From Calothrix sp. HK-06 (GTDB lineage Bacteria > Cyanobacteriota > Cyanobacteriia > Cyanobacteriales > Nostocaceae): a DNA stretch of 64,000 bases. Within the stretch, counting starts at the first letter, position 1. Every line of letters starts with the position of its first letter. Both the position numbers and the translations under genes were made by a program. The notes beneath the pieces are model-generated. The model was given only the letters and a program-made list of their open reading frames with translations, made no database searches and was not told where the DNA came from. Positions 45,905 through 64,000 of this stretch are shown here, in pieces. The DNA is taken from contig NZ_MRCD01000011.1 in NCBI RefSeq assembly GCF_001904745.1, positions 62,001 to 126,000 on the forward strand, written 5' to 3'.

Positions 45905-46140
45905 TGTACATTAACTAATTATTTGTCAATTTAACAAATTATTGTCACAAATGTAGGAAATCCTGAAAACCCTGCCATCTAAAGGTTTGTGGCAGGTTTT
46001 TTATTATTTTAAGATTCCAAGCCTGTCAAAGCTTAATTAACATATTAACTGTCAAATCCCAGAAATATAACACATTAATTGTCAGTTCCCAAAAATCAAA
46101 CAAATTAATGATTTTATAAAATTTAACAAATTCTTTGTCC
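45905..46140 (+). mobile_element. Left end of a Tn7-like (type V-K CAST) transposon
   Basis: The end starts with TGTACA at 45905 and contains at least five related TnsB-type sites of form TTAACAxATTAxTTGTCA: about 45911-45928, 45931-45948, 46037-46054, 46067-46084 and 46123-46140, plus a weaker one near 46098. The tnsB start codon follows 43 bases later. This matches the known arrangement of type V-K CAST left ends, where TGT-initiated ends carry long and short TnsB repeats. The 5-bp target duplication would be CGTGT (45900-45904); I did not find its partner in the window. Confidence 0.85.
45971..45996 (+). terminator. Terminator inside the transposon left end
   Basis: CCTGCCA (45971-45977) and TGGCAGG (45990-45996) form a 7-bp stem, flanked by AAAA before and followed by TTTTTTA. 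It lies between TnsB-type sites 2 and 3 and would stop transcription entering from flanking DNA before tnsB. Confidence 0.75.
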
Positions 46141-46182
46141 ATTTATTAATATAATACAACTATGTTTTTATAAAACACATCT

Positions 46183-47946
46183 ATGAAGGATGCAAAATCT
46201 ACTACAAACTCTGCAATGACACATGCCAGCATTGCGGATGTAGAAAACGGTAAAGCAGAAGCAAATATTATTGTTTCTGAACTGTCAGATGAAGCTTTGT
46301 TAAAAATGGAGGTTATTCAAACCCTATTAAAAAATAGCGACTGTAGCACACGTGGTGAGCTTCTCAAACAATCAGCAGAAAAACTTGGTAAGTCTGTACG
46401 AACTGTGCGGCGCCTAGTTGATAAGTGGGAAAAAGAAGGTTTAGCTGGGTTGGTTCAGAATCAACGAGATGATAAAGGTAAGCACCGAGTTAACAAATAC
46501 TGGCAAGAGTTTGTTTTGACGACTTACAAAGAAAATAATAAGGGCAGTAAAAGAATGACTCGCCAGCAGGTATTTATTAGAGCCAAGGCGAGAGCAGATG
46601 AACTAGGTATTGAACCTCCTTCACACATGACGGTTTACCGAATTTTAAAACCGTTAATAGACAAGCAGGAACAAGCTAAAAGTATTCGTAGTCCAGGTTG
46701 GCGCGGTTCGCGTTTATCAGTAAAAACCCGTGATGGCAAAGATTTACAAGTAGAGCATAGTAATCAGGTTTGGCAGTGTGACCATACCCGCGTTGATGTT
46801 TTATTGGTAGACCAGCATGGGAAAATTCTTAGTCGTCCTTGGTTAACAACAGTAATCGATAGTTATTCGCGTTGCATTATGGGCATTAACTTGGGTTACG
46901 ATGCACCGAGTTCGACTGTTGTGGCTTTGGCGTTACGTCATGCAATTTTGCCTAAGCAGTACAGTTCAGAATATGGACTTCATGAAGAATGGGGTACTTA
47001 TGGTTTACCGCAAAATTTCTATACGGACGGAGGTAAAGATTTTCGCTCTAACCATTTGCAGCAAATAGGAGTGCAACTAGGGTTTGTGTGTCATTTACGT
47101 GACAGACCATCTGAGGGTGGTAGTGTTGAGCGTCCATTTAAAACTTTAAATACAGAATTATTTTCAACTTTGGCGGGGTATACAGGTTCTAACGTTCAAG
47201 AAAGACCAGAAGAAGCAGAGAAAGAAGCTTGTTTAACACTACGCCAACTAGAGAAGATGTTGGTGCGTTATATCGTCGATAACTATAACCAACGAATCGA
47301 TGCACGAATGGGCGACCAGACAAGATTTCAACGCTGGGAATCTGGGTTAATTGCAATGCCAGATTTACTTTCTGAAAGGGATTTAGATATTTGCTTAATG
47401 AAGCAAACACGGCGCCAAATTCAACGCGGGGGATATCTACAATTTGAAAACTTGATATACCGAGGTGAGCTTTTAGCGGGTTACGCGGGAGAAAGTGTTG
47501 TATTGCGTTATGACCCTAAAGACATCACAAAAATTTTGGTTTATCGCATGTCCGAGGGTAAAGAAATATTTCTTGCCCGTGCTTATGCTCAAGATTTAGA
47601 GGCAGAAGAACTATCTTTAGATGAAGCAAAAGCGAGCAGCCGTAAAGTCAGGGAAACAGGTAAAGCTATCAATAATCGCTCAATTTTGGCAGAGATAAGA
47701 GAACGGGAAACATTCCCAACTCAAAAGAAAACTAGAAAAGAGCGTCAAAAATTGGAACAGACTGAGGTCAAAAAAGCTAAACAACTTACACCTGTCGAAA
47801 CGGAGAAAGCAATAGATGTGGTATCTATTGATGCAAAACCTACTGGTAAAAATCCTGTTGAGAGTGAGCTTTGCACTGAATCTGGAGAGCTAGATATGCC
47901 AGAAGTACTTGACTACGAACAAATGCGTGAAGATTACGGGTGGTAA
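46183..47946 (+). CDS. tnsB: Transposase TnsB of a type V-K CRISPR-associated transposon
   Basis: The 587-residue protein matches cyanobacterial V-K TnsB along its whole length. It has an N-terminal helix-turn-helix (EKLGKSVRTVRRLVDKWEKE), KSIRSPGWRGSRLSVKTRDG, and the DDE catalytic residues D200 (VWQCDHTRVDVLL), D282 (FYTDGGKDFRS) and E316 (GSVERPFKTLN). The C-terminal TnsC-contact tail ends DYEQMREDYGW. It cuts and joins the 3' transposon ends. All catalytic residues and the tail are intact. The tnsC start is 3 bases after its stop. Confidence 0.97.
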   Translation: MKDAKSTTNSAMTHASIADVENGKAEANIIVSELSDEALLKMEVIQTLLKNSDCSTRGELLKQSAEKLGKSVRTVRRLVDKWEKEGLAGLVQNQRDDKGKHRVNKYWQEFVLTTYKENNKGSKRMTRQQVFIRAKARADELGIEPPSHMTVYRILKPLIDKQEQAKSIRSPGWRGSRLSVKTRDGKDLQVEHSNQVWQCDHTRVDVLLVDQHGKILSRPWLTTVIDSYSRCIMGINLGYDAPSSTVVALALRHAILPKQYSSEYGLHEEWGTYGLPQNFYTDGGKDFRSNHLQQIGVQLGFVCHLRDRPSEGGSVERPFKTLNTELFSTLAGYTGSNVQERPEEAEKEACLTLRQLEKMLVRYIVDNYNQRIDARMGDQTRFQRWESGLIAMPDLLSERDLDICLMKQTRRQIQRGGYLQFENLIYRGELLAGYAGESVVLRYDPKDITKILVYRMSEGKEIFLARAYAQDLEAEELSLDEAKASSRKVRETGKAINNRSILAEIRERETFPTQKKTRKERQKLEQTEVKKAKQLTPVETEKAIDVVSIDAKPTGKNPVESELCTESGELDMPEVLDYEQMREDYGW

Positions 47947-47948
47947 AA

Positions 47949-48785
47949 ATGGTAGCAAAAGAAGCGCAAGAAGTCGCCAAACAGCTAGGTGATATTCCTG
48001 TTAATGATGAGCAATTACAAGCTCAAATCCATCGATTAAATCGCAAAGGATTTGTTCCCTTAGAACAAGTGCAAACTCTGCATGACTGGCTAGAAGGAAA
48101 ACGGCAATCACGTCAATCAGGACGTGTGGTAGGAGAGTCTAGAACTGGTAAGACTATGGGTTGTGATGCATATCGATTAAGAAATAAGCCCAAACAAGAA
48201 GCAGGAAAACCGCCAACAGTGCCTGTAGCTTACATCCAAATTCCTCAAGAGTGCGGCGCCAAAGAATTATTTGGGGTAATTATGGAGCATTTGAAGTACC
48301 AAGTAACTAAAGGAACAGTGGCAGAAATTAGAGATAGAACGCTGCGTGTTCTTAAAGGTTGTGGGGTTGAGATGTTAATCATTGATGAGGCTGACCGTTT
48401 CAAACCCAAGACTTTTGCTGAGGTTCGTGATATTTTCGACAAGTTGGAAATCCCAGTTATTTTGGTGGGGACTGACCGCTTGGATGGTGTGATTAAGCGC
48501 GATGAGCAGGTCTATAACCGTTTTCGGTCTTGTCATCGTTTTGGCAAATTGTCGGGGGAAGAATTTAAACGGACTGTGGAAATTTGGGAAAAGAAGGTTT
48601 TGCAGTTACCAGTAGCTTCCAATCTTTCTAGTAAAACGATGTTGAAAAGCTTGGGGGAAGCGACAGGGGGTTATATCGGTTTGCTCGATATGATTTTGCG
48701 AGAGAGCGCAATCCGTGCCCTGAAAAAGGGATTGCAAAAAATTGATTTGGACACTTTAAAGGAAGTCACTGCGGAGTATCGGTAG
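47949..48785 (+). CDS. tnsC: AAA+ transposition regulator TnsC (type V-K CAST)
   Basis: The 278-residue ATPase has Walker A GESRTGKT (62-69), Walker B MLIIDEAD (141-148) and the sensor region PVILVGTDRLDGVIKRDEQV. It matches short V-K TnsC proteins, which polymerise on DNA and link the Cas12k-TniQ target complex with TnsB. The ATG at 47949 was chosen because the product then starts MVAKEAQEVAKQLG like its relatives; a GTG at 47940 would overlap tnsB. Its stop overlaps the tniQ start by one base. Confidence 0.96.
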   Translation: MVAKEAQEVAKQLGDIPVNDEQLQAQIHRLNRKGFVPLEQVQTLHDWLEGKRQSRQSGRVVGESRTGKTMGCDAYRLRNKPKQEAGKPPTVPVAYIQIPQECGAKELFGVIMEHLKYQVTKGTVAEIRDRTLRVLKGCGVEMLIIDEADRFKPKTFAEVRDIFDKLEIPVILVGTDRLDGVIKRDEQVYNRFRSCHRFGKLSGEEFKRTVEIWEKKVLQLPVASNLSSKTMLKSLGEATGGYIGLLDMILRESAIRALKKGLQKIDLDTLKEVTAEYR

Positions 48786-49294
48786 TGGAAGAAGAATATA
48801 TTAAACCTTGGCTATTTCAAGTTGAGCCATTTGAAGGAGAAAGTTTAAGTCACTTTTTGGGAAGGTTTCGACGCGCAAATGAGTTAACACCTGGCGGGTT
48901 GGGCAAAGCTACGGGACTTGGAGGAGCAATTGCTCGTTGGGAGAAATTTCGATTTAATCCTCCCCCAGATGGTCAGCAATTAGAGAAACTAGCTGTCGTG
49001 ACAGCTATTAATGTTGATAGGTTGACACAAATGTTGGCGCCTCCTGGTACAGGTATGAAACTTGAGCCGATTCGTTTGTGTGGGGCTTGTTATGCTGAGT
49101 CACCTTGCCACAAAATTGAGTGGCAGTTTAAGGAAACACAAGGGTGTAAGCACCATAAATTGCGTTTGTTATCAGAATGTCCTAATTGTGGCGCCAGGTT
49201 TAAGGTTCCGGCTTTATGGATGGATGGGTGGTGTCATCGGTGTTTTACACCGTTTGTGGAGATGGTTAAGTGGCAAAAACAAACTAACCATTAA
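48785..49294 (+). CDS. tniQ: Target-selection protein TniQ (type V-K CAST)
   Basis: The 169-residue protein is a short TniQ. The N-terminal KPWLFQVEPFEGESLSHFLG and RFRRANELTPGGLG are the family hallmark; zinc-binding pairs follow in LCGACYAESPCH, CPNCGARF and CHRC. In V-K CASTs TniQ caps the TnsC filament at the Cas12k R-loop. The GTG start at 48785 overlaps the tnsC stop, indicating translational coupling. Size and motifs match intact relatives. Confidence 0.95.
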   Translation: MEEEYIKPWLFQVEPFEGESLSHFLGRFRRANELTPGGLGKATGLGGAIARWEKFRFNPPPDGQQLEKLAVVTAINVDRLTQMLAPPGTGMKLEPIRLCGACYAESPCHKIEWQFKETQGCKHHKLRLLSECPNCGARFKVPALWMDGWCHRCFTPFVEMVKWQKQTNH

Positions 49295-49329
49295 AATGAA
49301 AACACAGTTTGGTTAAGTACTTTCATTTT
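49293..49329. terminator. Bidirectional terminator between tniQ and the HNH remnant
   Basis: Perfect 9-bp arms AAAATGAAA (49293-49301) and TTTCATTTT (49321-49329), starting at the tniQ stop codon. The A/T-rich flanks allow termination in both directions between convergent genes. Confidence 0.65.
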
Positions 49330-49330: not shown

Positions 49331-49940
49331 CTAATCCCCATCAATATCATGAATTGACTCAAGGCTTAAATTTTTGCCCATTGCCTTGCTAATTAGTTCC
49401 ATAAGAGCTTCTGCTCTCGCTTGGAAAAATGCTTCAAAGTCGTCACATCGTAAAGTTTCTAGTGTGATGCAGTGTGATTGCAGTATTCTATCAAGGTTAG
49501 TAGCCCCTGTTCCACATAGCTCAAATTCTTTTAGGTAAAGCGAAGGCGCCTTACAGCCTATTGTTTTGTTGGTTTTGGCGCTCAATGGGGTGCGGTTAAC
49601 AAGACAGTTATATTTTTTGGGGTCAATTCCTTGTTTACGACACCATGCAACAGGAAATATGTGGCGAGAATCGATTTGTTCCTCAAAATAAACAACGTCG
49701 TTAATTTCTTCTGCTGTAAACCAATCAACGGCACCTTCGCTTCGTAGTAATGCGGCGAATCCTTGGTAAACGGCGCCAAGTTGCTTTCTAACGCTGATTA
49801 GTCGCTCCAATGAGAAATTTGCTTGCGTAATAGCAAAAGGACTTGAGCCACCATCAAGCCATGCTGGAATTTCAACAATATCTCGTTCAGCTTGAGAATG
49901 GTGCGAGTAAGTATAAATCTCACCAAATATCCCGTGTTTA
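49331..49940 (-). pseudogene. C-terminal remnant of a DUF262-HNH (GmrSD-like) gene
   Basis: The reading runs from about 49940 (GIFGEIYTYSHHSQAERDIV) through VRKQLGAVYQGFAALL and the HNH motif QIDSRHIFPVAWC with YNCLVNRTPL to the stop at 49331. It aligns throughout with the last 200 residues of the next gene (50066-51922), so it is a second copy whose DUF262 half is deleted. Two GGCGCC sites lie inside. The HNH residues remain, but without the nucleotide-binding half it is probably dead. Confidence 0.75.
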
Positions 49941-52046: not shown

Positions 52047-52340
52047 TCAAGAAGGACAAATACGCTGTTGAAGTTGTTCTGGAATCTCATCAAACGATTC
52101 AAGAAAAATATCAGCCAATGCAAGATAACGCATGTGATACTTCGTTGGAGGGCTGAAATTCTCCCCTTGCTCGAACCAGCGTTTGACATTTGCGACACTA
52201 CAGTTACACAATGCTGCCATTTGCGCGCGCGTCACATCCCATTTCGCTTCAAATTCACGGGGAGTCATGCCCAGTTGGCAGTTAGCAAACCTTTGGATTA
52301 AACCTAGTTCATTTTGTCTTAAACGACGGGGAGTGTTCAT
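52047..52340 (-). CDS. Helix-turn-helix protein B
   Basis: Taking the ATG at 52340 gives 97 residues starting MNTPRRLRQNELG. The middle, EAKWDVTRAQMAALCNCSVA then NVKRWFEQGENF, is a helix-turn-helix; the rest is helical. The ATG overlaps the stop of the preceding gene (ATGA), so they are translationally coupled. It is a distant paralogue of protein A (53258-53599), with the shared pattern W.V.R…A..C.CS…V..WF.QG. It is probably a DNA-binding regulator of this small operon. Confidence 0.6.
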   Translation of the reverse strand: MNTPRRLRQNELGLIQRFANCQLGMTPREFEAKWDVTRAQMAALCNCSVANVKRWFEQGENFSPPTKYHMRYLALADIFLESFDEIPEQLQQRICPS

Positions 52341-53257: not shown

Positions 53258-53599
53258 TTAGGAATTGTTAAGATTTTTTCGTGGCTTTTGGCGATACATT
53301 TCCCGTAACTTTTGTAAATACTCTGGTTCTGTGTCAATAGCAGTCCAAATGTGGTGTACCAAAGCTAGACGTTGCTTGTGTTTTTCGCTTGGCGTTCTGC
53401 GGTCAATACCTTGCGAAAACCAGTGATTGACTGTTGTTAGGGAACAGTCGCAGATAAAAGCTAATTCCTCTCGTGACACTTCCCAGTGCCTGAGAAACTC
53501 GTCGAGTTCCATCAAATACTCGTTTAGGGGGTTTAGATATGCGTTGAACGCATCCCAGTGTCGCTGAGTAGGATTTTTTGCAGCAATACCCATAGCCAT
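53258..53599 (-). CDS. Helix-turn-helix protein A
   Basis: The 113-residue protein has FLRHWEVSREELAFICDCSL then TTVNHWFSQGIDRRTPSEKH, a helix-turn-helix with a W at the recognition helix, and a helical C-terminus with a basic tail (YRQKPRKNLNNS). The palindrome TTGCCATTTGGCAA lies 6 bases upstream of its start and again just after its stop, so it probably regulates itself and the genes that follow. Same strand as 52047-53149. Confidence 0.6.
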   Translation of the reverse strand: MAMGIAAKNPTQRHWDAFNAYLNPLNEYLMELDEFLRHWEVSREELAFICDCSLTTVNHWFSQGIDRRTPSEKHKQRLALVHHIWTAIDTEPEYLQKLREMYRQKPRKNLNNS

Positions 53600-53618: not shown

Positions 53619-53668
53619 ATTAAGCTATCATACCTTTTGGGAATGCGAAATTCTACCAAAAAAATCGA

Positions 53669-53682
53669 CCGCCTAACGGCGG
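53669..53682 (-). other. Hairpin downstream of variable repeat A
   Basis: CCGCCTAACGGCGG forms a 5-bp stem with a 4-base loop about 70 bases beyond the end of variable repeat A. The 85 bases between repeat and hairpin are conserved at the other target gene (hairpin CCGCCGTCAGGCGG, 56387-56400), with loop changes only. Hairpins with a 4-base loop just downstream of the variable repeat are needed for efficient retrohoming in the Bordetella phage DGR, so this is a likely homing hairpin as well as a terminator (T-runs on the minus strand). Confidence 0.6.
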
Positions 53683-53736
53683 AAAAAAAGGAAAAAAGAA
53701 AAAAAGTAAAGGGCAATAGAACTAAAGTATAAAGGG

Positions 53737-54615
53737 CTACTGAAGAACCCTCCCAACCCCGCAGACTACGCGAAAACCAAACCTGTAGTAGTTGATGCCG
53801 ACGCGCTCCGCCCTATCGTTGAGGAAGCGAGACGCAGAACGGCAGTCTCCTGGATAGTCATACCAGGAACCGCCACGCAGCACAGCACTTCCTTGCTTTT
53901 GATAAATATTATCATTCTTATTATCAAACCAAGCACTACCATCCACTGGCGCCCCTTCATAATTATTGTGCCAATCATCAAGACACCATTCCCATACGTT
54001 TCCATGCATATCGTATAACCCAAACGCATTCGCGGCGCCAAAACTTCCTACGGGTGTTGTTTTGCGACGGGATTTTCCTTTAGAACCTCGACCATAGGAG
54101 CCTGACAATTTATATTCTTTGTCATTCGTGCCATGATAATTAGCTAAATCAGTTGTAATTGTCTCGCCTAAGTGAAATGGTGTAGTAGTACCCGCACGGC
54201 AAGCATATTCCCATTCTGCTTCACTAGGAAGACTATATTTTCTTTTTGTATTTGTGTAGCTAGTAAGACGCGAGCAAAATTCAACAGCATCGTACCAACT
54301 GACCTGCTCAACAGGTAGGTTATCACCTTTAAATCTTGATGGGTCTGGTTTTAAATCGCTGTTAACTCGCAGATGCCCCATATTCGCTACTGCTCGCCAT
54401 TGTGCTTGGGTAATAGGATATTTACCCATAAAGAAAGTTGGAACTGTAACTTCGTGTTGGGGACGTTCACGACTCGTACTACCTTCTTCCGTTTCTGGCG
54501 CCCCCATTGTAAAAGTACCACCCCTAATCAGCACCATCTCTAGTTTGACTCCATTTCCCAAGTCTTCAACAAAATGTAGTCCTGTCCGGCGGTGTTTGGT
54601 GATTGCTAGTGCCAT
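53737..54615 (-). CDS. DGR target protein A, formylglycine-generating-enzyme (C-type lectin) fold
   Basis: The 292-residue protein is a single FGE-sulfatase/SUMF1 domain: LVLIRGG-type start (MVLIRGGTFTMGAPETEEGS), LPSEAEWEYACRAGTTTPF, GLYDMHGNVWEWCLDDW and AVLRGGSWYDYPGDCRSASR, ending GFRVVCGVGRVLQ. In DGR targets this C-type-lectin fold displays a variable ligand-binding face. Its last 43 codons are variable repeat A, related to the template at 54792-54918. It lacks the extra N-terminal domain of target B. It is probably a secondary target or a diversified partner. Confidence 0.9.
   Translation of the reverse strand: MALAITKHRRTGLHFVEDLGNGVKLEMVLIRGGTFTMGAPETEEGSTSRERPQHEVTVPTFFMGKYPITQAQWRAVANMGHLRVNSDLKPDPSRFKGDNLPVEQVSWYDAVEFCSRLTSYTNTKRKYSLPSEAEWEYACRAGTTTPFHLGETITTDLANYHGTNDKEYKLSGSYGRGSKGKSRRKTTPVGSFGAANAFGLYDMHGNVWEWCLDDWHNNYEGAPVDGSAWFDNKNDNIYQKQGSAVLRGGSWYDYPGDCRSASRFLNDRAERVGINYYRFGFRVVCGVGRVLQ
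53751..53880 (-). repeat. DGR variable repeat A
   Basis: The 130-bp repeat corresponds to the 127-bp template. Most differences replace template adenines: AAC to GAC, AAT to TAT, GAA to GGA, AAC to TTC and CTC. One codon more is present between GAGCGC and GGTTTTCGC than in the template, and an AGG codon there cannot come from adenine changes alone. So this copy was not made entirely from the present template. Confidence 0.88.
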
Positions 54616-54791
54616 ATTTATTTTTATTTTTTATAATATTTTGAAGGTGAGATAACTTTTCAGCTTGCTTACTAAGCTACCTCACCTAGTTTGATTTTTG
54701 GATATCGTCACCGACATCTCAGGAACAGGCTGGACTCTTCAATTACACCCTCGACAGATTCCCACCTGCCGACTCTCGCGGTGAAGAGACA
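54616..54791. other. Spacer between target gene A and the template repeat
   Basis: It contains a 7-bp inverted repeat AGGTGAG … CTCACCT (about 54645-54687), and TTATAATATTTT close to the target A start. It probably holds the promoter and ribosome site of target A or a processing hairpin of the template RNA. Confidence 0.35.
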
Positions 54792-54918
54792 TCCCAACCC
54801 CGCAGACTACGCGAAAACCAATATTGTTGTTGTTGTTGTCGCGCTCCGCCCTATTGTTGTTGTTGCGAGACGCAGAACGGCAGTTTTCTGGATTGTTATA
54901 CCAGGAACCGCCACGCAG
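54792..54918 (-). ncRNA. DGR template repeat
   Basis: The 127-bp template lies 21 bases downstream of the reverse-transcriptase stop. Read on the minus strand it would encode WYNNPENCRSASRNNNNRAE and RDNNNNNIGFRVVCGVG, with twelve AAC/AAT codons where the variable repeats have many residues. Conserved ends CTGCGTGGCGG and GGGGTTGGGA match both variable repeats. AAC/AAT codons are typical because adenine-specific mutagenesis of them never gives a stop codon. The RNA is copied by RT-Avd into mutated cDNA. Confidence 0.93.
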
Positions 54919-54939
54919 TCGGGTTCGCCTATCCCTTCT

Positions 54940-55998
54940 CTACTCCCTCAACCATTCGAGCGAAGTAAATATCTGTTGACGTAAGCGCCAAGTATCTCCG
55001 TGTTCTAAATGAGCAAACCAACTTTGTATCGATTGATTTACTTTTTCCCGGTCGATTTTACCACGAGCATATTCTGATTGCAAGCGTCTGAGTCGGCGCC
55101 TAGCTAAATGCAAATTACTACTTCGCACGCGAATTCTATCGGGAAATATTCTAAATCCCAGAAAGGTGGCGCCGATTTTTGTTGCAAATAATTGGCTTTT
55201 AATTGGATGAATTTGCAGTCTTAATTGAGCTAAATATGCTTCAATAGCTAATCGTGCTGAGGCTAAAAATTCCCAATCATCTGAAAATAAGGCGAAGTCA
55301 TCGACATAACGAACATACTTACGAACTTTTAGTTGTTCCTTGACAAAATGGTCAAAGCCATTTAAGTAGATGTTCGCAAAAAATTGACTAGTTAAGTTTC
55401 CAATTGGTAAACCGCGTCTGCGAGTAATGGGAGTGAGCAAATCATCGCCAGGAAAATATTCAATTACGGGTTCTTGTTCGTTACTATTATCTATAATAGT
55501 ATCAATTAACCACAGAGTCTCATTACATTTAATTTTTCGACGTAGTAATTCTTTTAATATGATATGGTCAATGCTCGGAAAATACTTCCTGATATCGCAC
55601 TGGAGTACATAGCGACTATTGCGGGCAAAGTGAGTAAATCTCTTTAATGCTTGATGAGTTCCAAAGCCAACTCGATTAGCGTAAGAATCTTGAATAAATG
55701 TAGACTCAAAAATCGGTACAATAATATTACACAAAGCATGATGGACAACTCTATCTCGATAAGGTGCAGCGGAGATAAGGCGACTTTTAAGACCCGTTAA
55801 GTGAAAAGTTCGGTAATTTCCTGGTTGGTAAGTTTTATTTGTTAACTCTTTTTGTAAATTAATTAATTCTGTTTCGAGATGGTAATTAAAATCTAAAACA
55901 TTATCCCGAAATCGTTTACCTCTTTGCGCCTGACGCGCGGCTGAAAGTAGGTTTGTAAATTCTATAATTTGAGGATAGAGATTACCGCGACGCTTCAT
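54940..55998 (-). CDS. Reverse transcriptase of a diversity-generating retroelement
   Basis: The 352-residue RT has [12 protein letters not shown] (133-144, first catalytic Asp), the DGR-type motif [10 protein letters not shown] (196-205; retroviral and group II enzymes have QG here) and the active site YVDD (231-234), then a thumb region with [12 protein letters not shown]. It lacks maturase or endonuclease domains, as DGR RTs do. With Avd and template RNA it makes cDNA mutated at adenines and homes it into the target genes. Avd ends 6 bases upstream. Confidence 0.95.
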
Positions 55999-56004
55999 TA
56001 TTCT

Positions 56005-56340
56005 TTATTTCTTCTGTTGTTTTATCCAGCCACCAAGTTCTATACCAATTTCATCTATCAGTTTAATTACATATTCATATCGCTGGGCGCAAATAAAGTC
56101 AAAATCGAGTAACATCCGCGTCTGATAGCGTAAAATATCTAACTGAGTGTTTAAAGGCTCTAAGTGAGTTAGTTTATTTTTAGCGTATTTAGCTTGAATC
56201 AATCCCTCTAATAAACTGTACAAACCATTGATAATTCTATCTCCTAAAGTAAACTTATGAATCTTGGGTAAGCGCTCAATAATCGGCACATACCATTTAA
56301 TACAATCATAAGTCTTTTGGATAACAGATAGTTCTTTCAT
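56005..56340 (-). CDS. avd: Avd, accessory variability determinant of the DGR
   Basis: The 111-residue, basic, all-helical protein (YDCIKWYVPIIERLPKIHKF, LGDRIINGLYSLLEGLIQAK, RMLLDFDFICAQRYEYVIKL) has the size and four-helix pattern of Avd/bAvd proteins. Avd forms a pentamer that binds the RT and template RNA and is required for mutagenic homing. It lies between target B and the RT on the same strand, the usual DGR order. Confidence 0.88.
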   Translation of the reverse strand: MKELSVIQKTYDCIKWYVPIIERLPKIHKFTLGDRIINGLYSLLEGLIQAKYAKNKLTHLEPLNTQLDILRYQTRMLLDFDFICAQRYEYVIKLIDEIGIELGGWIKQQKK

Positions 56341-56386
56341 TTTTACTTATTTTTATAAATCTTAATATTTAGCCAAAAAAAATCGA

Positions 56387-56400
56387 CCGCCGTCAGGCGG
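56387..56400 (-). other. Hairpin downstream of variable repeat B
   Basis: CCGCCGTCAGGCGG, a 5-bp stem with a 4-base loop, lies at the same distance beyond variable repeat B as the related hairpin near target A. Flanking bases (AAAAAAATCGA and CTAAAGTATAAAGGGCTACT) are shared by both loci, pointing to duplication of the whole target 3' cassette. Confidence 0.6.
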
Positions 56401-56454
56401 AGGGGAAGGAAAAAAGAAAAAGAATAAAGGGTAATAGCGCTAAAGTATAAAGGG

Positions 56455-58044
56455 CTACTCAAGAATCCTCCCAACCCCGCAGACTACGCGAAATCCAAAA
56501 TTGTAGTTGACGTAGTCGCGCACCGCCCTAGAGTTGATGTAGCGAGACGCAGAACGGCAGACTTCTGGATTGAGAAACCAGGAACCGCCACGCAGCACAG
56601 CACTTCCTTGCTTTTGATAAATATTATCATTCTTATTATCAAACCAAGCACTACCATCCACTGGCGCCCCTTCATAATTATTGTGCCAATCATCAAGACA
56701 CCATTCCCATACGTTTCCATGCATATCGTATAACCCAAATGCATTAGCTACACGAAAACTTCCTACAGGTGTTGTTTTGCGACGGGATTTTCCTTTGGGA
56801 GCATCACCGTAAGACGAACTACCATCGTAGCTAGCAAGTTCTGATGTAATGGTCTCGCCAAAATGGAATGGTGTAGTCGTACCCGCGCGACAAGCATATT
56901 CCCATTCGGCTTCACTTGGTAAAGTGTAGTCTCTACCTGTATACTCTGAGAGACGCAAGCAAAACTCCACGGCATCGTACCAAGAAACGCGCTCAACGGG
57001 TCGTTTATCGCCTTTAAATTCAGATGGGTCTAGTTTTAGTTCTCTATTTATCTGGGGTAATTGGGCAACAAATTTCCACTGTGCCTGAGTTATAGAGTAT
57101 TTACCTATGAAAAAAGGCTGTACGGTAACTGGATGCTGGGGACTCTCGTCTTTATCACGTCCAGCTTCATCTTCTGGCGCTCCCATTATAAAGCTTCCTC
57201 CCGGTATTGCGACCATTTCTATGCCCAGTTCGGATGGTTTGCCTGGGGTTTCACCTAAATATTCGGTAAAGTAAAATGCTTCTTTTTGTTCTTGCTTAAT
57301 GATTTGCCCACGTATATCAACTGTGACTGTTTTAAACTGAAAAGGTTTTAATTCTTCTAGTCCGTCATCGATAATGAGCGCTACGTAATATTCAAAGGGT
57401 TTTAACTCAACTCCTAATGCTGCTGAAATTTTTTGCTCTTCTTCATCCAGAGGATGTAGTTCGTCTTTTGATAATAATGGCGCAAAACCTCGCTCTTGCA
57501 GAAAATCGTCATATTTTTCTGACAATTCTCTCCACTCGATATCTTTCTCATCTTTCTCAGATAAGGAAAGTATTAACTCCCGCAATTTTTGCTTGAGAGT
57601 ATTAAATTTTTCATCACCTTCAATTAAATATGTTAGTGGTGTCCATTGATATTCGTTATCATTTTGGTTGATGCGGTTGGAAATGTAATGGAACATGAAA
57701 TTACCAAGTTCCTCGATACGCTTTTTGTTTCTCTCGTCCAATTCCTTAAGTAAAGCATTTCTCGTTTCCGACTCCATTTCATACAAGTCATAACCTATAG
57801 TTTCGCATAACCCCGATAGCAAAATATCCGCGACAGCATACCAGGGACAGTCTTTGACAAAGGTCTCGCGCAAACAATAAAGTAAATCTGAAGTGAGGGT
57901 GAGAGGAAAAGCAGCGTGGTAGGCTAAAAGCTCCACTTGTTCTCGATGTTTTTTTTCCTCGTAGCGTTGTACAATAACACTGAGGCGCCGGGTTGTTAAA
58001 TCTTCTCTTCTACTGAGTTGGTTTACAGGTGGAGGATTTGACAT
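56455..58044 (-). CDS. DGR target protein B: conflict-module domain plus FGE-fold domain
   Basis: The 529-residue protein has an N-terminal helical domain (about 35-110; LLAYHAAFPLTLTSDLLYCL, VKDCPWYAVADILLSGLCET) seen in cyanobacterial FGE proteins linked with SAV_2336-type genes. A linker and a C-terminal FGE/C-type-lectin domain follow (about 280-529; MVAIPGGSFIMGAPEDEAGR, LPSEAEWEYACRAGTTTPF, GNVWEWCLDDW). The last 42 codons are variable repeat B. The gene overlaps the vWA-like gene by 22 bases, so recognition (this protein) and signalling (vWA, MoxR) are co-expressed. Confidence 0.9.
   Translation of the reverse strand: MSNPPPVNQLSRREDLTTRRLSVIVQRYEEKKHREQVELLAYHAAFPLTLTSDLLYCLRETFVKDCPWYAVADILLSGLCETIGYDLYEMESETRNALLKELDERNKKRIEELGNFMFHYISNRINQNDNEYQWTPLTYLIEGDEKFNTLKQKLRELILSLSEKDEKDIEWRELSEKYDDFLQERGFAPLLSKDELHPLDEEEQKISAALGVELKPFEYYVALIIDDGLEELKPFQFKTVTVDIRGQIIKQEQKEAFYFTEYLGETPGKPSELGIEMVAIPGGSFIMGAPEDEAGRDKDESPQHPVTVQPFFIGKYSITQAQWKFVAQLPQINRELKLDPSEFKGDKRPVERVSWYDAVEFCLRLSEYTGRDYTLPSEAEWEYACRAGTTTPFHFGETITSELASYDGSSSYGDAPKGKSRRKTTPVGSFRVANAFGLYDMHGNVWEWCLDDWHNNYEGAPVDGSAWFDNKNDNIYQKQGSAVLRGGSWFLNPEVCRSASRYINSRAVRDYVNYNFGFRVVCGVGRILE
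56469..56595 (-). repeat. DGR variable repeat B
   Basis: The 127-bp repeat has the same length as the template. Compared codon by codon, TAT to TTT, AAC to CTC, AAC to GTC, AAC to TAC, AAC to ATC, AAT to TCT, GAG to GTG and ATT to TTT all change template adenines only. One exception is GGT to GGA next to the invariant 3' end, beyond the last mutated codon. This is clear evidence of adenine-specific diversification from the present template. Confidence 0.93.
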
Positions 58045-59186
58045 ATCTTAATCTTACTTTCCTGTGGATTTTGTTTAACTACAGTTTGTAAACTAGTTGG
58101 TTCGTATGTTAACATTTCACCATTGAGTATTTTGTGTATTTCCCAAGCAGAGGTATGGCGCCAACGTTGAGATGGTAAAGGATTTAACCAGATTAATTGG
58201 CGAATACAAGGGGATAGGTTATGTAAAAATTTCCAGATTCCTTGTATTCGTTCTTCGCTATAAATACCTAGTGTGGCGCCTGCATCGCTTATAATTAGGG
58301 CAATAGTGCGGTTTTGATGTAATTTGGATAAGAGATTTGTAATTAGTTCGGCTTTAGTTGGATGATGCCATTGGTACAAATATTCGTCTGGATAACTTGT
58401 AAACCGATATACCCTTGCGGGGGTAATTCGAGCTTGGTCAATTGCTTGAGTAAAAGGCTGGAGAGCAGCGAAAAAGGGTATCATCGCTAAGTTATCATCA
58501 ATTAGTAATAAAAGTTCGGCTCGACGAACTTTAACTGGTCGCATTACTACGTCACTAAAAATACCTTCTCGCTCAATTAAGTCAATTGTTGCATCAATAT
58601 CTAATTCGTATTCTTTGCCAATAGGTACTGGTCGTTTTAAAATTTTCCAAGCATCTCGAACGTCTTGCAGTTTTATCGGAAAATGCTGAGGTGTGAGAAT
58701 ATATTTATTACTACTGTCTTCCGAAAAAGCTTTTTCTTCCGGAGTGAAAGGAGTTTTGAGAGCAGCAGGAACTTGTGTATTGTTTTCGTCTGATGCTTCT
58801 GCTGAAGGTGTTCCTGTTTTTTTGGGTGTTCTCCGAGGTGGAATTTTGGGAAGGTTTTCTTTATCCTCTACAGGAGGAGGGGGAGGTTCTTGTTGTGGTT
58901 CCTCTGGTTCTGCGTCTTCGGTGTCACGATGTTGCTGTTGGATATTCTTCTTAAAAGCTGCAAAAGCGTCCTCGAAAGTCTTAGCATCGTAGTTAGCGCT
59001 GGGTTTGAACCACAGTAACCGACATACCCGTTCTAAATCTGACCATCCACCTAAACCGTAACCTAGGGAGATTGCTTCTCGTAACAGCTGATACTGTTCC
59101 AATGTTAAAGTTATTCCAGACTCTCGCATTTTTTGGAACAAGTCTAATAGTAAGGAATCGATTTGGGCATACTCAGAGCTAATCAT
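58023..59186 (-). CDS. SAV_2336-like protein with a vWA-type domain
   Basis: The 387-residue protein begins with a helical SAV_2336-like N-terminal domain (about 1-75; YQLLREAISLGYGLGGWSDL, RVCRLLWFKP). A low-complexity acidic/proline linker follows (about 90-130), then a vWA-like domain (about 205-350) with RRAELLLLIDDNLAMIPFFA, where the MIDAS motif DxSxS has become DDNLAM, and TIALIISDAGATLGIY. vWA proteins work with MoxR AAA+ ATPases as chaperone-like or effector-loading pairs. It overlaps target B and follows the MoxR gene by 23 bases. Confidence 0.75.
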   Translation of the reverse strand: MISSEYAQIDSLLLDLFQKMRESGITLTLEQYQLLREAISLGYGLGGWSDLERVCRLLWFKPSANYDAKTFEDAFAAFKKNIQQQHRDTEDAEPEEPQQEPPPPPVEDKENLPKIPPRRTPKKTGTPSAEASDENNTQVPAALKTPFTPEEKAFSEDSSNKYILTPQHFPIKLQDVRDAWKILKRPVPIGKEYELDIDATIDLIEREGIFSDVVMRPVKVRRAELLLLIDDNLAMIPFFAALQPFTQAIDQARITPARVYRFTSYPDEYLYQWHHPTKAELITNLLSKLHQNRTIALIISDAGATLGIYSEERIQGIWKFLHNLSPCIRQLIWLNPLPSQRWRHTSAWEIHKILNGEMLTYEPTSLQTVVKQNPQESKIKICQILHL

Positions 59187-59209
59187 AGTATTATTTAAGT
59201 TAAATTTGT

Positions 59210-60328
59210 CTAACTATTTTCCATAACTTTTGGGTATATGTTCTGTGCTTCTTTTGTTTTCAATAGTGTCCCTTTTAAGGATAATTTATTGCGGAAGAAC
59301 TTATCTAAATCCATTAATGCTGTACTAGTATCACTTTTATCTAAATTTAAAAGAGCAGTAATAAAATCCATAAATTCGCTAGTTCCAGGTGGTCTAATTC
59401 CAGGGTAGTCTTTCAGCTTATCGTGAATTTCATAAAAACTTTCTATGGCTTTGTTAACCAATTTTTCTTTATTTACACTCTGTTTACTAAAGCGTAATTC
59501 AATAATCTCCTTTAATTTTTCTTTTTGAGGAAATTCAACATAAAAGTAAAGACAGCGACGTAAGAATGGTTCTGGTAATGGTTTCTCGCGATTGCTAGTT
59601 ATAAAAATAATCGGTTTATTATTGGGAGTTGAAACTTTTTCTCCCGTTTCTGGAATTTCAAAACGCAGTTCTTCTAATTCCAGTAGTAAGTCATTTGCAA
59701 AATCACTATCTGCTTTGTCAATTTCATCAATTAGTAAAATAGGACGATAAGAATGATTTCGTAATGCTTGACCTAATGCTCCAAACTCTCTATAACTTGT
59801 TTTATCCTTCAACCGCTTCTTTAATTCACCAGTACTATTTAGGTATTCTTGCAATTGCTCTATGTTTGTTCCCATCATTCCCATTACTGGGTTTGTTCCC
59901 ATCATTCCTATTAATTGAGCATCTCGCAATCTTGCAACAGCATCATACCTGTAAAGTCCATCACGCGCGCGCGTCGTAGATTTAATATTCCAGATATAAT
60001 AAGACCACCATACTTGTGTACTATTCTGGTTTTCTGGGTTTTGATTTCCGAGTTTTTTTAGATATTCTTGATTTTTTTGTGTAAATTCATACACAACTGA
60101 TGAAGCTAAACGAGTTTTACCACAACCGGGTTCCCCTTCCAATAGTAATGGTCGTTCGAGTGCAATAGCTAAATTTACCGCTTCGATTAAATCATTACTG
60201 GGTAAGTAAGGGTAATACACTCGTCCTTCTGAGTCTGTTGGGTAATGTTCATTTTCCTTTTTAGGTTGGTATTTGTCCGTATACTTGTAATCGGGTTGTA
60301 TTTCTTGTGACTCTTGTTCATTATTCAT
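59210..60328 (-). CDS. MoxR-family AAA+ ATPase
   Basis: The 372-residue ATPase has Walker A LLEGEPGCGKTRLASS (about 62-77), Walker B RPILLIDEIDKADSDFANDL, and sensor/arginine-finger region IIFITSNREKPLPEPFLRRC. This is the MoxR/GvpN-type pattern with the PEPFLRR box. An insert with a repeated GMMGTNPV/GMMGTNIE segment precedes the second half. MoxR ATPases remodel vWA-domain partners. The gene begins 4 bases after the stop of 60333-61556 and is followed by the vWA-like gene, so the three are one transcription unit. Confidence 0.88.
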   Translation of the reverse strand: MNNEQESQEIQPDYKYTDKYQPKKENEHYPTDSEGRVYYPYLPSNDLIEAVNLAIALERPLLLEGEPGCGKTRLASSVVYEFTQKNQEYLKKLGNQNPENQNSTQVWWSYYIWNIKSTTRARDGLYRYDAVARLRDAQLIGMMGTNPVMGMMGTNIEQLQEYLNSTGELKKRLKDKTSYREFGALGQALRNHSYRPILLIDEIDKADSDFANDLLLELEELRFEIPETGEKVSTPNNKPIIFITSNREKPLPEPFLRRCLYFYVEFPQKEKLKEIIELRFSKQSVNKEKLVNKAIESFYEIHDKLKDYPGIRPPGTSEFMDFITALLNLDKSDTSTALMDLDKFFRNKLSLKGTLLKTKEAQNIYPKVMENS

Positions 60329-60332
60329 AATT

Positions 60333-61556
60333 TTACCCTTGTTCTAGTTTCCAATAATCTTTAATTGTTTCATCATGCTCATCCAATCCAAACACATATT
60401 TAAAAATATTAGTTATCACAGCGTAAGGTTCTGTTGTAAATTTTTTAATGTTTTCGTATGTGTCTTGATTTATATTTAAAGCTTTTTGTGAGTCGTTTTG
60501 ATTTTCCAAATAAATTATCCATTTGTAAAGTTCCTCGGATGAGATTTCATCTAAACTAAGTAAGGTCATATTTTGATTATCAATACTAACATTATTATTT
60601 AATTTTCCCATCAAAAAGAAAATCAAATATTTTGGCATTCCTTGCTGATTGTGTTTTGCTAAAGAATCACGAATTTTTGGATTTTGAATTAAATCAGAAT
60701 AAAATGTGTATAATTTATCTAATCCTTTAAAAGTAAAACTACTTGGACAAGAGATATAAAAAATTACAGTTTTTGTTTTATAGTAATCAGCTAAATTTGT
60801 AATAACTGCTTCTCTATCTGGATTTTTTACCGTTTTATCCTTTGTAATTTTTTGAATAAATACATTATCAAAATTGGTTTCCAGCATTACATTGTCAATT
60901 TGGATTGGAATTTTTTTCGCGGTCTGTAAACCTCCTATATTTTGTTCTAAAACATATCTAAACCAAGGAAGGATTTCGTGTTTATCTGCTTGAATTATAA
61001 AAAAACCTGTTCTATTTTTTATCTTCTCTGAAAAACTTTTTTTCTGGTCTTCACAATTTAATGAGAGTAAATATTTATTTAAGGTCGGATAGTCTTTATT
61101 ATTGATTGAGCTTGAAATTGTGTCATTAATATCTTTGTATTGGGCAGTAGGGTTTTTATTATTTTTACTGGCTTGTTCTCTTATCAATTGTTTGTAGTCA
61201 TTTGGCTTTAATTGAACAATTTCATAAAAAGCTTTATCTTCAATTTTAACGCCTTCATATTTAAAGTCCTGTGTATATTTATTATCATCGTAATATTTTT
61301 GAAAATTTTCAAATAACATATTTATAGTCTTTTCATTAACTCCTTTCTGACGATTCATAATTTTACTTATTGTTCGGACGTGTAGCTTATCATCCAAGCA
61401 TTTTGATAATTTTGCGTTCGATGGGTCGCCTTTCTTAAACAATATTTTGCAAATCTTCTCGATTTTTTGCATACCTTGTTCAGTCATTATATATGCTGGT
61501 TTTGATTTTACTTTTTTAGTATCACTTGGTTCTTTTTCTGAATTTTGGCTTGGCAT
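60333..61556 (-). CDS. Probable inactive-STAND (iSTAND) conflict-system protein with HTH-like N-terminus
   Basis: The 407-residue, Lys/Asn-rich protein starts with a basic tail and a helix-turn-helix-like region (KLSKCLDDKLHVRTISKIMN, about 49-68). From about residue 160 it follows the pattern of cyanobacterial iSTAND domains: YLLSLNCEDQKKSFSEKIKN, RTGFFIIQADKHEILPWFR, a helix and strand, then TKTVIFYISCPSSF and YLIFFLMG. There is no Walker A glycine loop, as in inactive members. In MoxR-vWA conflict systems such proteins sense or gate the effector. The assignment rests on pattern only. It is first gene of the operon. Confidence 0.55.
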   Translation of the reverse strand: MPSQNSEKEPSDTKKVKSKPAYIMTEQGMQKIEKICKILFKKGDPSNAKLSKCLDDKLHVRTISKIMNRQKGVNEKTINMLFENFQKYYDDNKYTQDFKYEGVKIEDKAFYEIVQLKPNDYKQLIREQASKNNKNPTAQYKDINDTISSSINNKDYPTLNKYLLSLNCEDQKKSFSEKIKNRTGFFIIQADKHEILPWFRYVLEQNIGGLQTAKKIPIQIDNVMLETNFDNVFIQKITKDKTVKNPDREAVITNLADYYKTKTVIFYISCPSSFTFKGLDKLYTFYSDLIQNPKIRDSLAKHNQQGMPKYLIFFLMGKLNNNVSIDNQNMTLLSLDEISSEELYKWIIYLENQNDSQKALNINQDTYENIKKFTTEPYAVITNIFKYVFGLDEHDETIKDYWKLEQG

Positions 61557-61574
61557 TCCTTACTCCCAGTAACC

Positions 61575-61893
61575 TATCATCAGCACCCCAACAAGCCCTT
61601 AATGTCGGAAGACTTGCAGAGACTAACGTTAACTGACTGCATTTTAAACAATAAGCTTAACTAGTACATTATCATAGCAAGTATCAACCCAAAAAGTCTT
61701 TAATGCCAGAAGCGTTACTGGGAATGGCTTTGACGGCATTAAAAAAATAACTTTAAAAAACAGTCGATCATCATCGTGATCATCATAGCAAGTATCAAAC
61801 AAAAAAATATTTAATGCCAGAAACGTAACTGGAACTGACTTTGACTGCGTTAAACAAAATGACAATTAAAAACAGTCGATCATTATCGCGATC
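61575..61893. repeat. Tandem repeats of about 111 bp upstream of the conflict operon
   Basis: Unit 1 (61671-61781) and unit 2 (61782-61893) share ATCATAGCAAGTATCAA, TTTAATGCCAGAA and the dyad-like end CAGTCGATCAT with about 75-80% identity. A shorter, more degenerate unit (about 61575-61670) precedes them. They occupy the upstream region of the minus-strand operon that starts at 61556. An open frame across them is a by-product. They may be regulatory binding arrays. Confidence 0.6.
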
Positions 61894-62057
61894 ATTTGCT
61901 GCATCTGCTTTTACCTTTTGATATCTATAAAACAAGGGTCACCAAACAGCGTTAGTGGTAGCTTGCTGACGAGACGCTTGTCGCTCCCTCCGCCAGGTAA
62001 CCCGTGTACTCCCTGTGTAAATGGTGTGTATATGTTGGAACAAATGAAAAATAAGGA
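61894..62057. repeat. Interspersed cyanobacterial-type repeat before the sigma-like gene
   Basis: The stretch around 61935-62010 (GGTCACCAAACAGCGTTAGT … GACGAGACGCTTGTCGCTCC … CAGGTAACCCGTGTACTCC) resembles a repeat I recall in many Nostocales genomes, often giving a spurious frame. No gene is annotated here. Confidence 0.4.
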
Positions 62058-62066
62058 ATGTGTGTC

Positions 62067-62906
62067 ATGTGTAGACGAAAAAACGAGCTTCAAATGCCCA
62101 TTACTCAAAAATTCTTCACTCAAAAAAATCCGCTAGAAGATTTGGTTGAGCCAATTAATCAATTAGTACTCAGCAAAGAACGAAACGCGATGCTTAATCA
62201 ACAACTACGAGATTTAGTAGAGCAAATGAAACAATTACCACCATCAAGTAGAGAGTGGCGCAAACTCCTCAATCAATTATTAAAGATACTTAATACCCCA
62301 GGCGTATTATCCTCCATCGAAACATTAATGTATCGTGGAGTTACAGTGCATTCTCGGCGTATCCAGTTGATTTGTCCCGAAAAATGGCGTGAGGAAGTCT
62401 ACGCTGAAGCAAAGGCAAATGCTTTTGTGCGTATTGTTGAAGGAATCAATAATTATAAGCCCGAAAAAGCAACATTTAAGACTTGGGTTAATCAAATCCT
62501 TGGGGTGGAATATTTAAAGGCTCATAATAATATAGTACGAAACAAAGTACAAACAATGAGCCTGGATGCTATAAGTCATGATTCTACAGCACTAAGCGAA
62601 GAAGATAAATTACTTCGAGAGTTTATTGAACAAGATACAGGCGAACTACTCCGTAAACCGCTCAGTTACATAAATCAAGAGACACAAGTGAAAGGACGTA
62701 TCTTACTTAAAGAAGTATTGTTAATGCTTTTGGATGGTTACAAACAGAAAGACATACGCAGTGAATTACATATTCCCCCACAATCTTTATCCTCATTTAT
62801 TAAGCGCAACGGGGAAAAGGCAATAGACTATTTACGCAAGAACGGCTTCGACTTTGAGCCAAACATAGAAAAGAAGCGTAAAGTTGATGATACGAAAAAC
62901 GCTTAG
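62067..62906 (+). CDS. Sigma-70-family (ECF-like) sigma factor homologue
   Basis: The product of about 279 residues has a long N-terminal region of unknown role. A region-2-like helix follows (EEVYAEAKANAFVRIVEGIN, NYKPEKATFKTWVNQILGVE, the last being the KA.f.tWv…i.. core), and a region-4-like C-terminal helix-turn-helix (LLMLLDGYKQKDIRSELHIP … SLSSFIKRNGEKAIDYLRKN). This matches a cyanobacterial group of sigma-like proteins found beside DUF1822 genes. The ATG at 62067 has AAGGA 11 bases upstream; a start at 62094 is possible. It may control the neighbouring conflict genes. Confidence 0.7.
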   Translation: MCRRKNELQMPITQKFFTQKNPLEDLVEPINQLVLSKERNAMLNQQLRDLVEQMKQLPPSSREWRKLLNQLLKILNTPGVLSSIETLMYRGVTVHSRRIQLICPEKWREEVYAEAKANAFVRIVEGINNYKPEKATFKTWVNQILGVEYLKAHNNIVRNKVQTMSLDAISHDSTALSEEDKLLREFIEQDTGELLRKPLSYINQETQVKGRILLKEVLLMLLDGYKQKDIRSELHIPPQSLSSFIKRNGEKAIDYLRKNGFDFEPNIEKKRKVDDTKNA

Positions 62907-63002
62907 GCATTGCTACTTAAAGTCAGTGGGGTTTGTAAGTACTGGAACAACTTACGTTCAAAGCCGCGACAATAGATATTTACTAACCTAAACCAACCAA
63001 AA

Positions 63003-63521
63003 CTAACCAATGTTTATTGTCGCACCTTCTGACAAATCAGTCAAATAGTCAATTAAATCGTCTACTGATAGTAGTTCATCTAAACCAACTTGTGCTGAGG
63101 GAGTTTTGGTAAACCCTAAAATTACTGCCTCTGCTAGCGATGGACTTAATTTGACAATAACATAGCCTATTCTGTTAGACCAAACTTCTGATGGAATTTC
63201 GCAATACTCTGTTTCGTTTGTTACAGGAATGCACTCTAGTACACCAATATTTTTTACTGATAAATCTGCTGGGGAGAAGAATTTGAGCGTTAGCTTATCT
63301 TGACTACTGCTGCGCTCAGGTTCTGTTTCAAATCCTAAAATCTCTAGGTAATAATTAACTGCGTATACTGCCAAACTGTTGAGATATACGAGTTGAGCTT
63401 TATCGGTATTCTGATCAGGACAATATATGGATTGGCTAGAAATGCTTGCAGTTTCATGGGCTTTAGTACCGAGGGGTATGGCGAATGATACTTTTTGAGC
63501 TTTGTCAAATGCCTCAAACAT
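63003..63521 (-). CDS. DUF1822-family protein
   Basis: The 172-residue protein has the DUF1822 pattern: VSFAIPLGTKAHETASISSQ at the N-terminus, VYLNSLAVYAVNYYLEILGF, ECIPVTNETEYCEIPSEVWS and RIGYVIVKLSPSLAEAVILG. The family is common in cyanobacteria, often next to sigma-factor-like and CHASE2/CHAT or peptidase genes. Its function is unknown. It is convergent with the sigma-like gene, separated by about 96 bases. No GGCGCC lies inside; the hexamer returns at 63650. Confidence 0.75.
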   Translation of the reverse strand: MFEAFDKAQKVSFAIPLGTKAHETASISSQSIYCPDQNTDKAQLVYLNSLAVYAVNYYLEILGFETEPERSSSQDKLTLKFFSPADLSVKNIGVLECIPVTNETEYCEIPSEVWSNRIGYVIVKLSPSLAEAVILGFTKTPSAQVGLDELLSVDDLIDYLTDLSEGATINIG

Positions 63522-64000
63522 AGTTACTTACCCTCTTTTAGCTTGTTTCTCTAAAAAATACAACTGTTTAGCGGAATACACAAAATTATGACTAATAAAA
63601 GTATATCAACTCTAGTTTCAGTAAACCTAACAATGCTGGTTATTTGACGGCGCCTAACAATAATACAACCACTGCACACCTCAACACAGGCGCCTGCCAG
63701 TATACAGTATGCATCTCACAGATAGCACAGCTAGATAGTGTTCAGAGTGCTGTCATGTATTATCAGCCAAAAAAAATTCAGAAATTGCGGAAAAGACTTT
63801 TAGATTTGACTAATAAAAGTAGAAAAGAAAACAGATGCTTTTTGAAACCTCCTAAAGTTATTTTTCAGCACTGCGGAAAAAACCTTGAGGTTTGACTAAT
63901 AAAGGTAGACAAGATTTTTAGCCGGAGAACTATTAATATGTTACGCAAAAAAAACAGAAATATCAGAATTCCTATAGCTTTTCAAGGAGGAGGAGTACGT
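63522..64000. other. Right edge without an intact gene
   Basis: GGCGCC occurs near 63650 and 63690. A direct repeat of 42 bases, about 80% identical, lies at 63787-63828 and 63873-63914, containing TTTGACTAATAAAAGTAGA and TTTGACTAATAAAGGTAGA. A frame at 63644-63895 runs through it and looks random. A promising ribosome site (AAGGAGGAG) at 63984 ends the window, so a gene may start beyond it. Confidence 0.5.

Follow-up and report, generated by a model that had tools for sequence, protein, structure and literature searches.

The 30.7-kb element described here, from the cyanobacterium Calothrix sp. HK-06, is, to judge by its sequence, a type V-K CRISPR-associated transposon (CAST) with a complete diversity-generating retroelement (DGR) and sensor genes as cargo. 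It begins in a stretch of 64,000 nucleotides (hereafter the window; C13:62001-126000 of the 10-Mb genome G000). Contig C13 comprises 148,713 bases, and the 22.7 kb to the right of the window were added as loci L004 and L005; positions beyond 64000 are extended coordinates, i.e., the L004 position plus 62000. The element measures 30,741 bp, from 45905 to extended 76645, in the order tnsB-tnsC-tniQ, cargo, cvkR-like gene, cas12k and CRISPR array. The complete DGR, consisting of reverse transcriptase (RT), Avd, template repeat (TR) and two variable repeats (VR1 and VR2), and an operon containing a MoxR-like gene lie inside its boundaries. An earlier reading made from the letters of the window alone (the sequence-only reading) had placed the DGR and a conflict operon inside the transposon and had pointed to the DNA right of 64000 for its remainder; cas12k, the CRISPR array and a second end, TGTACA followed by CGTGT, were all present there.

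Transposon, retroelement and conflict operon

Several features of a type V-K CAST were present: Cas12k, tnsB-tnsC-tniQ at the opposite end, paired ends with a 5-bp duplication and an array near cas12k. First, the plus-strand genes tnsB (46183..47946, 587 aa), tnsC (TniB/AAA; 47940..48785, 281 aa) and tniQ (48785..49294, 169 aa) have open frames and matched Mu-transpos_C, TniB and TniQ, respectively, over the cut-offs, and the description of the three as intact was borne out. TnsB shows the motifs CDHT, YTDGG and SVERPF at residues 199, 280 and 314. Second, cas12k (extended 73511-75670, plus strand) encodes 719 aa without internal stops and matched NF038191 with 920 bits (cut-off 150, E 4.9e-277). 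The best matches in the PDB were solved V-K TnsB chains for TnsB and (Sh)Cas12k chains for Cas12k. A MerR-type regulator occupies the cvkR position (extended 73015-73455, minus strand), and an array of four repeats, assigned to Rfam CRISPR-DR15, lies at extended 76128-76386. The Rfam scan of the window gave zero matches. For a trans-activating CRISPR RNA after cas12k, Rfam gave no match; extended 75177-76166 is 88.7% identical to a sister element in the congener G353.

Third, the ends are paired. The tnsB-side end, with the 24-bp terminal repeat and TnsB-like sites (45905..46160, plus strand), starts TGTACATTAAC at 45905 with CGTGT just before it, so that the junction at 45900-45928 reads CGTGT and then TGTACATTAACTAATTATTTGTCA. 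The cas12k-side end (extended 76562-76645) runs into its junction as TGACAAATAATTAGTTAATGTACA followed by CGTGT. Thus, both termini are identical over 24 bp, and each is flanked by the target-site duplication CGTGT (45900..45904, and extended 76646-76650 outside the window). The sequence-only reading was right about a TGTACA-type end and called it the left one; by published usage, the cas12k end is left and the tnsB end is right (PMC9938897). Its count of five TnsB-like sites stood in part: five good sites and one weak site were seen by eye, and scans agreed only partly. With one consensus and at most four mismatches, one site was detected at the tnsB end, three at the cas12k end and 30 elsewhere in 86.7 kb, of which those at 51238 and 86221 alone had at most two mismatches. 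A laxer cluster scan detected the cas12k end and a place at 55434 and missed the tnsB end. Between 49294 and 53600, neither TGTACA nor a cluster of TnsB sites was found, so that a right end closing the transposon ahead of the DGR, one of the two refuting findings named in the sequence-only reading, can be set aside. The distance from tniQ to the DGR, given there as 4.4 kb, was measured as 4.44 kb. The anatomy of the element is solid at the level of sequence, and very probably a single CAST of 30,741 bp went in as one piece next to the start of a DUF5996 gene.

Two side observations concern transposon sequences elsewhere. A 215-aa TnsB fragment with 47% identity to the element's own TnsB lies on the minus strand within the cargo (extended 72194-72841; L004:10194-10841) and is probably a remnant of another CAST. 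In addition, the 24-bp terminus recurs exactly at two other places in the genome, L179 (G000:C215:18199) and L180 (G000:C243:15092), one back-to-back with another CAST-like end near tRNA-Val and one beside tRNA-Cys. Since the genome gave a single Cas12k match, these copies possibly belong to a non-autonomous CAST.

The DGR lies on the minus strand throughout, and RT, Avd, TR and two variable target genes run in one direction, as had been stated. The RT (54940..55998, 352 aa) carries GNLTSQ at residue 200 and YVDD at residue 231, and Avd (56005..56340, 111 aa) matched NF033474 with 140 bits (cut-off 80). The TR is located at 54784..54918. Target 1 (56455..58044, 529 aa) has a C-terminal FGE-sulfatase domain and contains VR1 (56461..56595), while target 2 (53737..54615, 292 aa) has an FGE-sulfatase (C-type-lectin-like) domain and contains VR2 (53741..53880). 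Of the 16 mismatches that each VR shows within the repeats, 15 fell on a template A and the remaining one on T; A accounts for 34 of the 135 TR bases. Three mismatches past the 3' end of each repeat and a 3-nt length difference (extra bases) in VR2 were set aside in these counts. Folding of 54600-54740, downstream of the TR, predicts a strong hairpin (z -4.0). In Calothrix PCC 7103 (L070), 13 of 13 and 15 of 15 TR/VR mismatches were at A. Compared over 125 positions with their HK-06 counterparts, its TR shows three differences and its VR1 shows 20, of which 17 coincide with TR adenines. We infer mutagenic retrohoming, the established DGR mechanism: RT and Avd would produce a cDNA of the TR that carries errors at adenines and overwrites the VRs, i.e., the 3' ends of the two FGE/C-type-lectin genes. 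A second DGR, with an RT 71% identical to that of the element plus Avd, was seen in the same genome (G000:C98:3947-5423).

Upstream of target 1, on the same strand, are the genes of a vWA-like protein (58023..59186, 387 aa; weak VWA_CoxE match, E 0.0019, below cut-off), a MoxR-like AAA+ ATPase (59210..60328, 372 aa; AAA_5 46.9 bits, cut-off 22, and bpMoxR below cut-off) and a third component (60333..61556, 407 aa) without a family match over cut-off. In an alignment of four proteins, the latter shared its C-terminal part with three relatives, and the N-termini differed. Its structure model shows an alternating helix/strand core, but the mean pLDDT (predicted local distance difference test) score is 54; it is possibly a VMAP/iSTAND-type partner. 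Together with the targets, the three proteins fit a predicted ternary conflict (immune sensor) system, the binding surface of which would be varied by the DGR.

Insertion site and spacer match

The window, L004 and L005 yielded no tRNA gene; the adjoining gene is that for DUF5996. By comparison, a tRNA gene lies 3' of cas12k in 22 of 30 Cas12k loci (L006-L035), and also at L164 (G353), not at L158. On the minus strand, the DNA immediately past the cas12k end has the sequence GGTT-CAGTCATTCAAACAACTCC, which lies over the DUF5996 gene start. Spacer 3 of the array, which begins at extended 76310, starts CAGTCATTCAACAACTCC. It pairs with this protospacer (extended 76692-76710, minus strand, outside the element) at 18 of 19 nt with a one-base gap; the protospacer adjacent motif (PAM) is GGTT (extended 76711-76714), and the distance from PAM to element is 65 nt. 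The four spacers were scored against GTN sites 46-82 nt from the junction on both sides, and spacer 3 and its target scored 16, whereas none of the 1,378 control junctions of this contig exceeded 10. Apart from the array itself, an ungapped genome search with spacer 3 (at most two mismatches) gave a single two-mismatch site, on C197. Inspection by eye revealed no distinct 17-nt anchor spacer; array spacer 4, which is 17 nt long, had only two-mismatch matches outside the array, six on C156 and one on C200.

The element thus occupies a non-tRNA site matched by an array spacer, and from this pairing we infer that the insertion there was RNA-guided. Cas12k with a CRISPR RNA from spacer 3 would have marked the DUF5996 site, and TnsC, TniQ and TnsB would have joined the element to it. 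Related elements sit mostly at tRNA genes, and the array spacer would thus have taken this copy to another site.

The uninterrupted site was searched for via the DUF5996 gene, which is present in 9 of 41 genomes, Calothrix sp. HK-06 included. In the two best relatives, G399 (same family) and G390 (same genus), the right flank matches from the 12th/13th base, and the left flank lies elsewhere. A partial second DUF5996 copy was observed in the window (15819-16182); it is 94% identical to G390 as compared with 88% for the copy beside the CAST, and the latter therefore looks like a paralog.

Origin of the cargo and alternative readings

The sister element of G353 (11,847 bp) shares 96% identity in TnsC, 83% in TniQ and 87% in Cas12k. 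A search of it for RT, Avd and target gave no match. Its spacer pairs with tRNA-Val at 17 of 17 nt, with GGTT and a distance of 63 nt. Its tnsB is split into two overlapping frames (L163:10210-11969).

The DGR and conflict genes of HK-06 form an island (53650..63913, minus strand) with a collinear counterpart in Dulcicalothrix desertica PCC 7102 (82% over 8,259 bp in the main block), and the part from MoxR to the DGR is also collinear with Calothrix PCC 7103. By the coinciding coordinates of their RT matches, these two relatives correspond to G391 and G392, both labelled as congeners. The genome of D. desertica gave no Cas12k match; in PCC 7103, Cas12k is on contig C12 with a fragment on C7, and the island is on C10. 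With 10 kb on each side of both islands (L066 and L070, respectively), tns or Cas12k proteins were not seen. Short dispersed repeats aside, the flanks in the two relatives are unlike each other and unlike the HK-06 contig, so that the island occupies three different places in three congeners. The sequence-only reading had allowed for a DGR collinear with the chromosome of relatives lacking the transposon; the operon is indeed collinear in two congeners without a V-K CAST at that place, and with both flanks unmatched the island is not this site's own chromosomal DNA. Since the island lies outside CASTs in the congeners and the sister element has no DGR, the island of about 10 kb is read as cargo that this element acquired.

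Cas12k was over the cut-off in 100 of 388 genomes of the order sample and Avd in 84; the phylum sample, with matches largely in the same genomes, gave 35 and 31 of 386, and the genus gave Cas12k in four of seven genomes and the element's RT in five. This amounts to 105 distinct Cas12k genomes, i.e., 100 of the order plus G424, G517 and G529 (phylum) and G390 and G392 (genus). Co-location was counted by eye as Cas12k and Avd over cut-off on the same contig within 100 kb (for G390 and G392, the element's RT instead of Avd), with Cas12k matches of the order sample listed down to an E of about 2e-49. Among the 105 genomes, HK-06 alone had Cas12k with a DGR Avd or RT within 100 kb, and the survey of other CASTs for RT-Avd that the sequence-only reading had proposed yielded no second case. 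The next-nearest distances seen were about 259 kb (G289) and 327 kb (G265). Since at least 20 kb of contig lay upstream in only 40 of 61 plus-strand Cas12k matches above 500 bits (order sample, HK-06 excluded; by eye), cases may be missed in broken assemblies. Among plasmids, Cas12k occurred in two records and the element's RT (E up to 1e-60) in 12, with zero overlap, and the single Cas12k contig in IMG/VR showed no DGR part in the 12.5 kb covered. In 80 of 102 loci of RT relatives, only 25 of them with 10 kb on each side, none of the element's TnsB, TnsC, TniQ or Cas12k was found.

Several observations weigh against the interpretation of a single, RNA-guided and DGR-carrying unit. The element with its DGR is represented by a single example, and the samples searched yielded no further copy; an assembly join may also lie within the cargo. 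The TnsB-site scans favour the cas12k end only, and the ends of the sister element differ from each other and lack a 5-bp duplication; the sister element therefore supports the backbone and the targeting, not the ends. The empty site was not recovered in the relatives checked, where left and right flanks are not adjacent. The match of spacer 3 requires a one-base gap; this extra base is present at the DUF5996 gene of G390 too, and neither form of the target, with or without that base, was found word for word in G399, so that a perfect ancestral match is not shown. Regarding the DGR, the orthologous VR1s differ at 21 of 127 positions and the flanking DNA at 88 of 600; with a total rate no higher than that of the flanks, it is solely their position at A that sets the differences apart. 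An ungapped comparison over the last 89 nt in D. desertica (L066) placed 20 of 40 and 18 of 31 TR/VR mismatches at A, with repeats of differing lengths, and thus gave no clean pattern. The 5' part of that TR (L066:11060-11175) is shorter than in HK-06, as if lost between two CTGCGT copies.

The island might be an independent mobile unit that entered the CAST by chance, with the CAST adding nothing to its spread. This is quite possible, if somewhat short of probable, and it is compatible with a CAST that carries a DGR. The three unrelated loci in three congeners and the proximity to Cas12k in one of 105 Cas12k genomes speak for it; however, repeats of at least 11 nt common to both island boundaries were absent, and thus such a unit was not identified. 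A fixed, inactive relic, in which the DGR was caught passively and both transposon and DGR are now without function, appears rather unlikely: the absence of a second DGR-carrying copy in the samples, the imperfect spacer match and the split tnsB of the sister element would agree with it, but the core genes are open, the ends, RT and Avd look intact, and the TR/VR pattern is clean inside the repeats. That two CAST halves from separate insertions, or a misassembly, bracket chromosomal DNA with the DGR, so that the 30.7 kb never moved together, is very improbable, for the extra termini at C215 and C243, the TnsB fragment in the cargo, the island outside CASTs in congeners and the unrecovered empty site are set against the CGTGT that flanks each end, termini identical over 24 bp, a spacer match whose spacing from the far end is as expected, a sister element that matches both halves and no internal end found between tniQ and the DGR.

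Beyond the acquisition of the island as cargo, the element may be an RNA-guided transposon that is still active and disseminates an anticipatory immune sensor capable of diversifying itself; we regard this as possible rather than probable. Such an element would combine two independently reprogrammable recognition systems, the spacer changing the landing site and the DGR changing the cargo specificity, and an array spacer would already have been used to leave tRNA sites. Innate defence genes are known to abound in the cargo of the Tn7 family. To these, a DGR would add a module with an ever-changing specificity of its own, and the CAST would give DGR-diversified sensors a targeted vehicle. The spread of DGR conflict systems, located at unrelated places in related cyanobacteria, becomes a testable question. 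Furthermore, the match between spacer 3 and the DUF5996 site offers a naturally occurring candidate case in which an array spacer would lead a V-K element to a protein gene rather than a tRNA gene.

The remaining cargo surrounds these genes. To the left of the island are a GmrSD-type gene (50066-51922, minus strand), a shorter open reading frame (ORF) downstream of it that weakly matches a related defence model (49331-49810, minus strand) and three small minus-strand ORFs that matched no family over cut-off (52047-52388, 52337-52879 and 53258-53599). Within the part collinear with D. desertica, a sigma-factor-like gene with weak matches only (62058-62906, plus strand) and a DUF1822 gene (63003-63521, minus strand) follow. 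Further right are, on the plus strand, a patatin gene (extended 63938-64843, with 63938..64000 in the window), a GH18 gene (extended 65259-68087) and, adjoining it, a gene for a 223-aa protein with a weak ribosome-inactivating-protein domain match (E 9.2e-7; extended 68204-68875, L004:6204-6875), and, on the minus strand, a DUF4145/HEAT gene (extended 69858-70988) and an MT-A70 methylase gene (extended 71163-72053). A repeat of about 56 bp precedes the patatin and GH18 genes (extended 63768-63909 and 65158-65213; L004:1768-1823, 1854-1909 and 3158-3213) and stands before other genes in D. desertica (L066:1363-1430); in one reading frame, it gives LRKRLLDLTNKSR in HK-06 and LRKKLLDLTNKSR in D. 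desertica.

Comparison with known systems

The sequence-only reading knew of no described RNA-guided transposon with a DGR, and our literature search, limited to open-licence PMC papers, found none reported either. In the passages seen of a review (PMC8987985), a DGR on such an element is not reported, and a 2023 meeting report, as far as its available text goes, has separate talks on the topics (PMC10680173). A survey of Tn7-like cargo describes defence genes, including retron and defensive RTs, and tabulates 78 Cas12k elements (Benler 2021, PMC8649781); in its main text, the words diversity-generating, retroelement and DGR are absent. For Vibrio sp. RC586, a DGR close to Tn7-type sequences had been noted before (Schillinger 2012, PMC3521204), and what is new here is therefore the RNA-guided carrier. 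There, the DGR lies where Tn7 usually carries resistance genes, which is the same kind of placement; unlike HK-06, the host belongs to a different phylum, and CRISPR guidance is unmentioned in the excerpts available of that paper (PMC3521204).

According to the parts consulted of PMC9938897, type V-K CASTs such as ShCAST and AnCAST share with the HK-06 element the order tnsB-tnsC-tniQ, cargo, cvkR, cas12k and CRISPR array as well as a GTN PAM. The published distance from PAM to end is 46-82 nt, with one exception of 147, as compared with 65 nt here, and restriction-modification genes are frequent cargo, a further likeness (PMC9938897). In contrast to these CASTs, the HK-06 element does not lie beside a tRNA gene and has a DGR in its cargo. 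Its homing match is an array spacer after a full repeat, whereas known V-K CASTs use a 17-nt anchor spacer after a truncated repeat.

With regard to the cargo, the nearest counterparts are the cyanobacterial DGR-linked MoxR-vWA ternary conflict systems, which, in the sections available of their descriptions, likewise comprise a MoxR-like ATPase, a vWA-like protein and an FGE/C-type-lectin target varied by RT, Avd and TR (Kaur 2020, PMC7159879; Dore 2024, PMC10907252). The link of such systems to DGRs was tied to the VMAP class in the relevant passages of the former (Kaur 2020, PMC7159879). The HK-06 operon is common to D. desertica and Calothrix PCC 7103. It differs from the known MoxR-vWA systems in that the vWA-like and FGE parts are separate genes and in that an RNA-guided transposon is the carrier. 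All modules are known; their combination, together with a spacer-matched site at a protein gene, in one genome, appears to be new.

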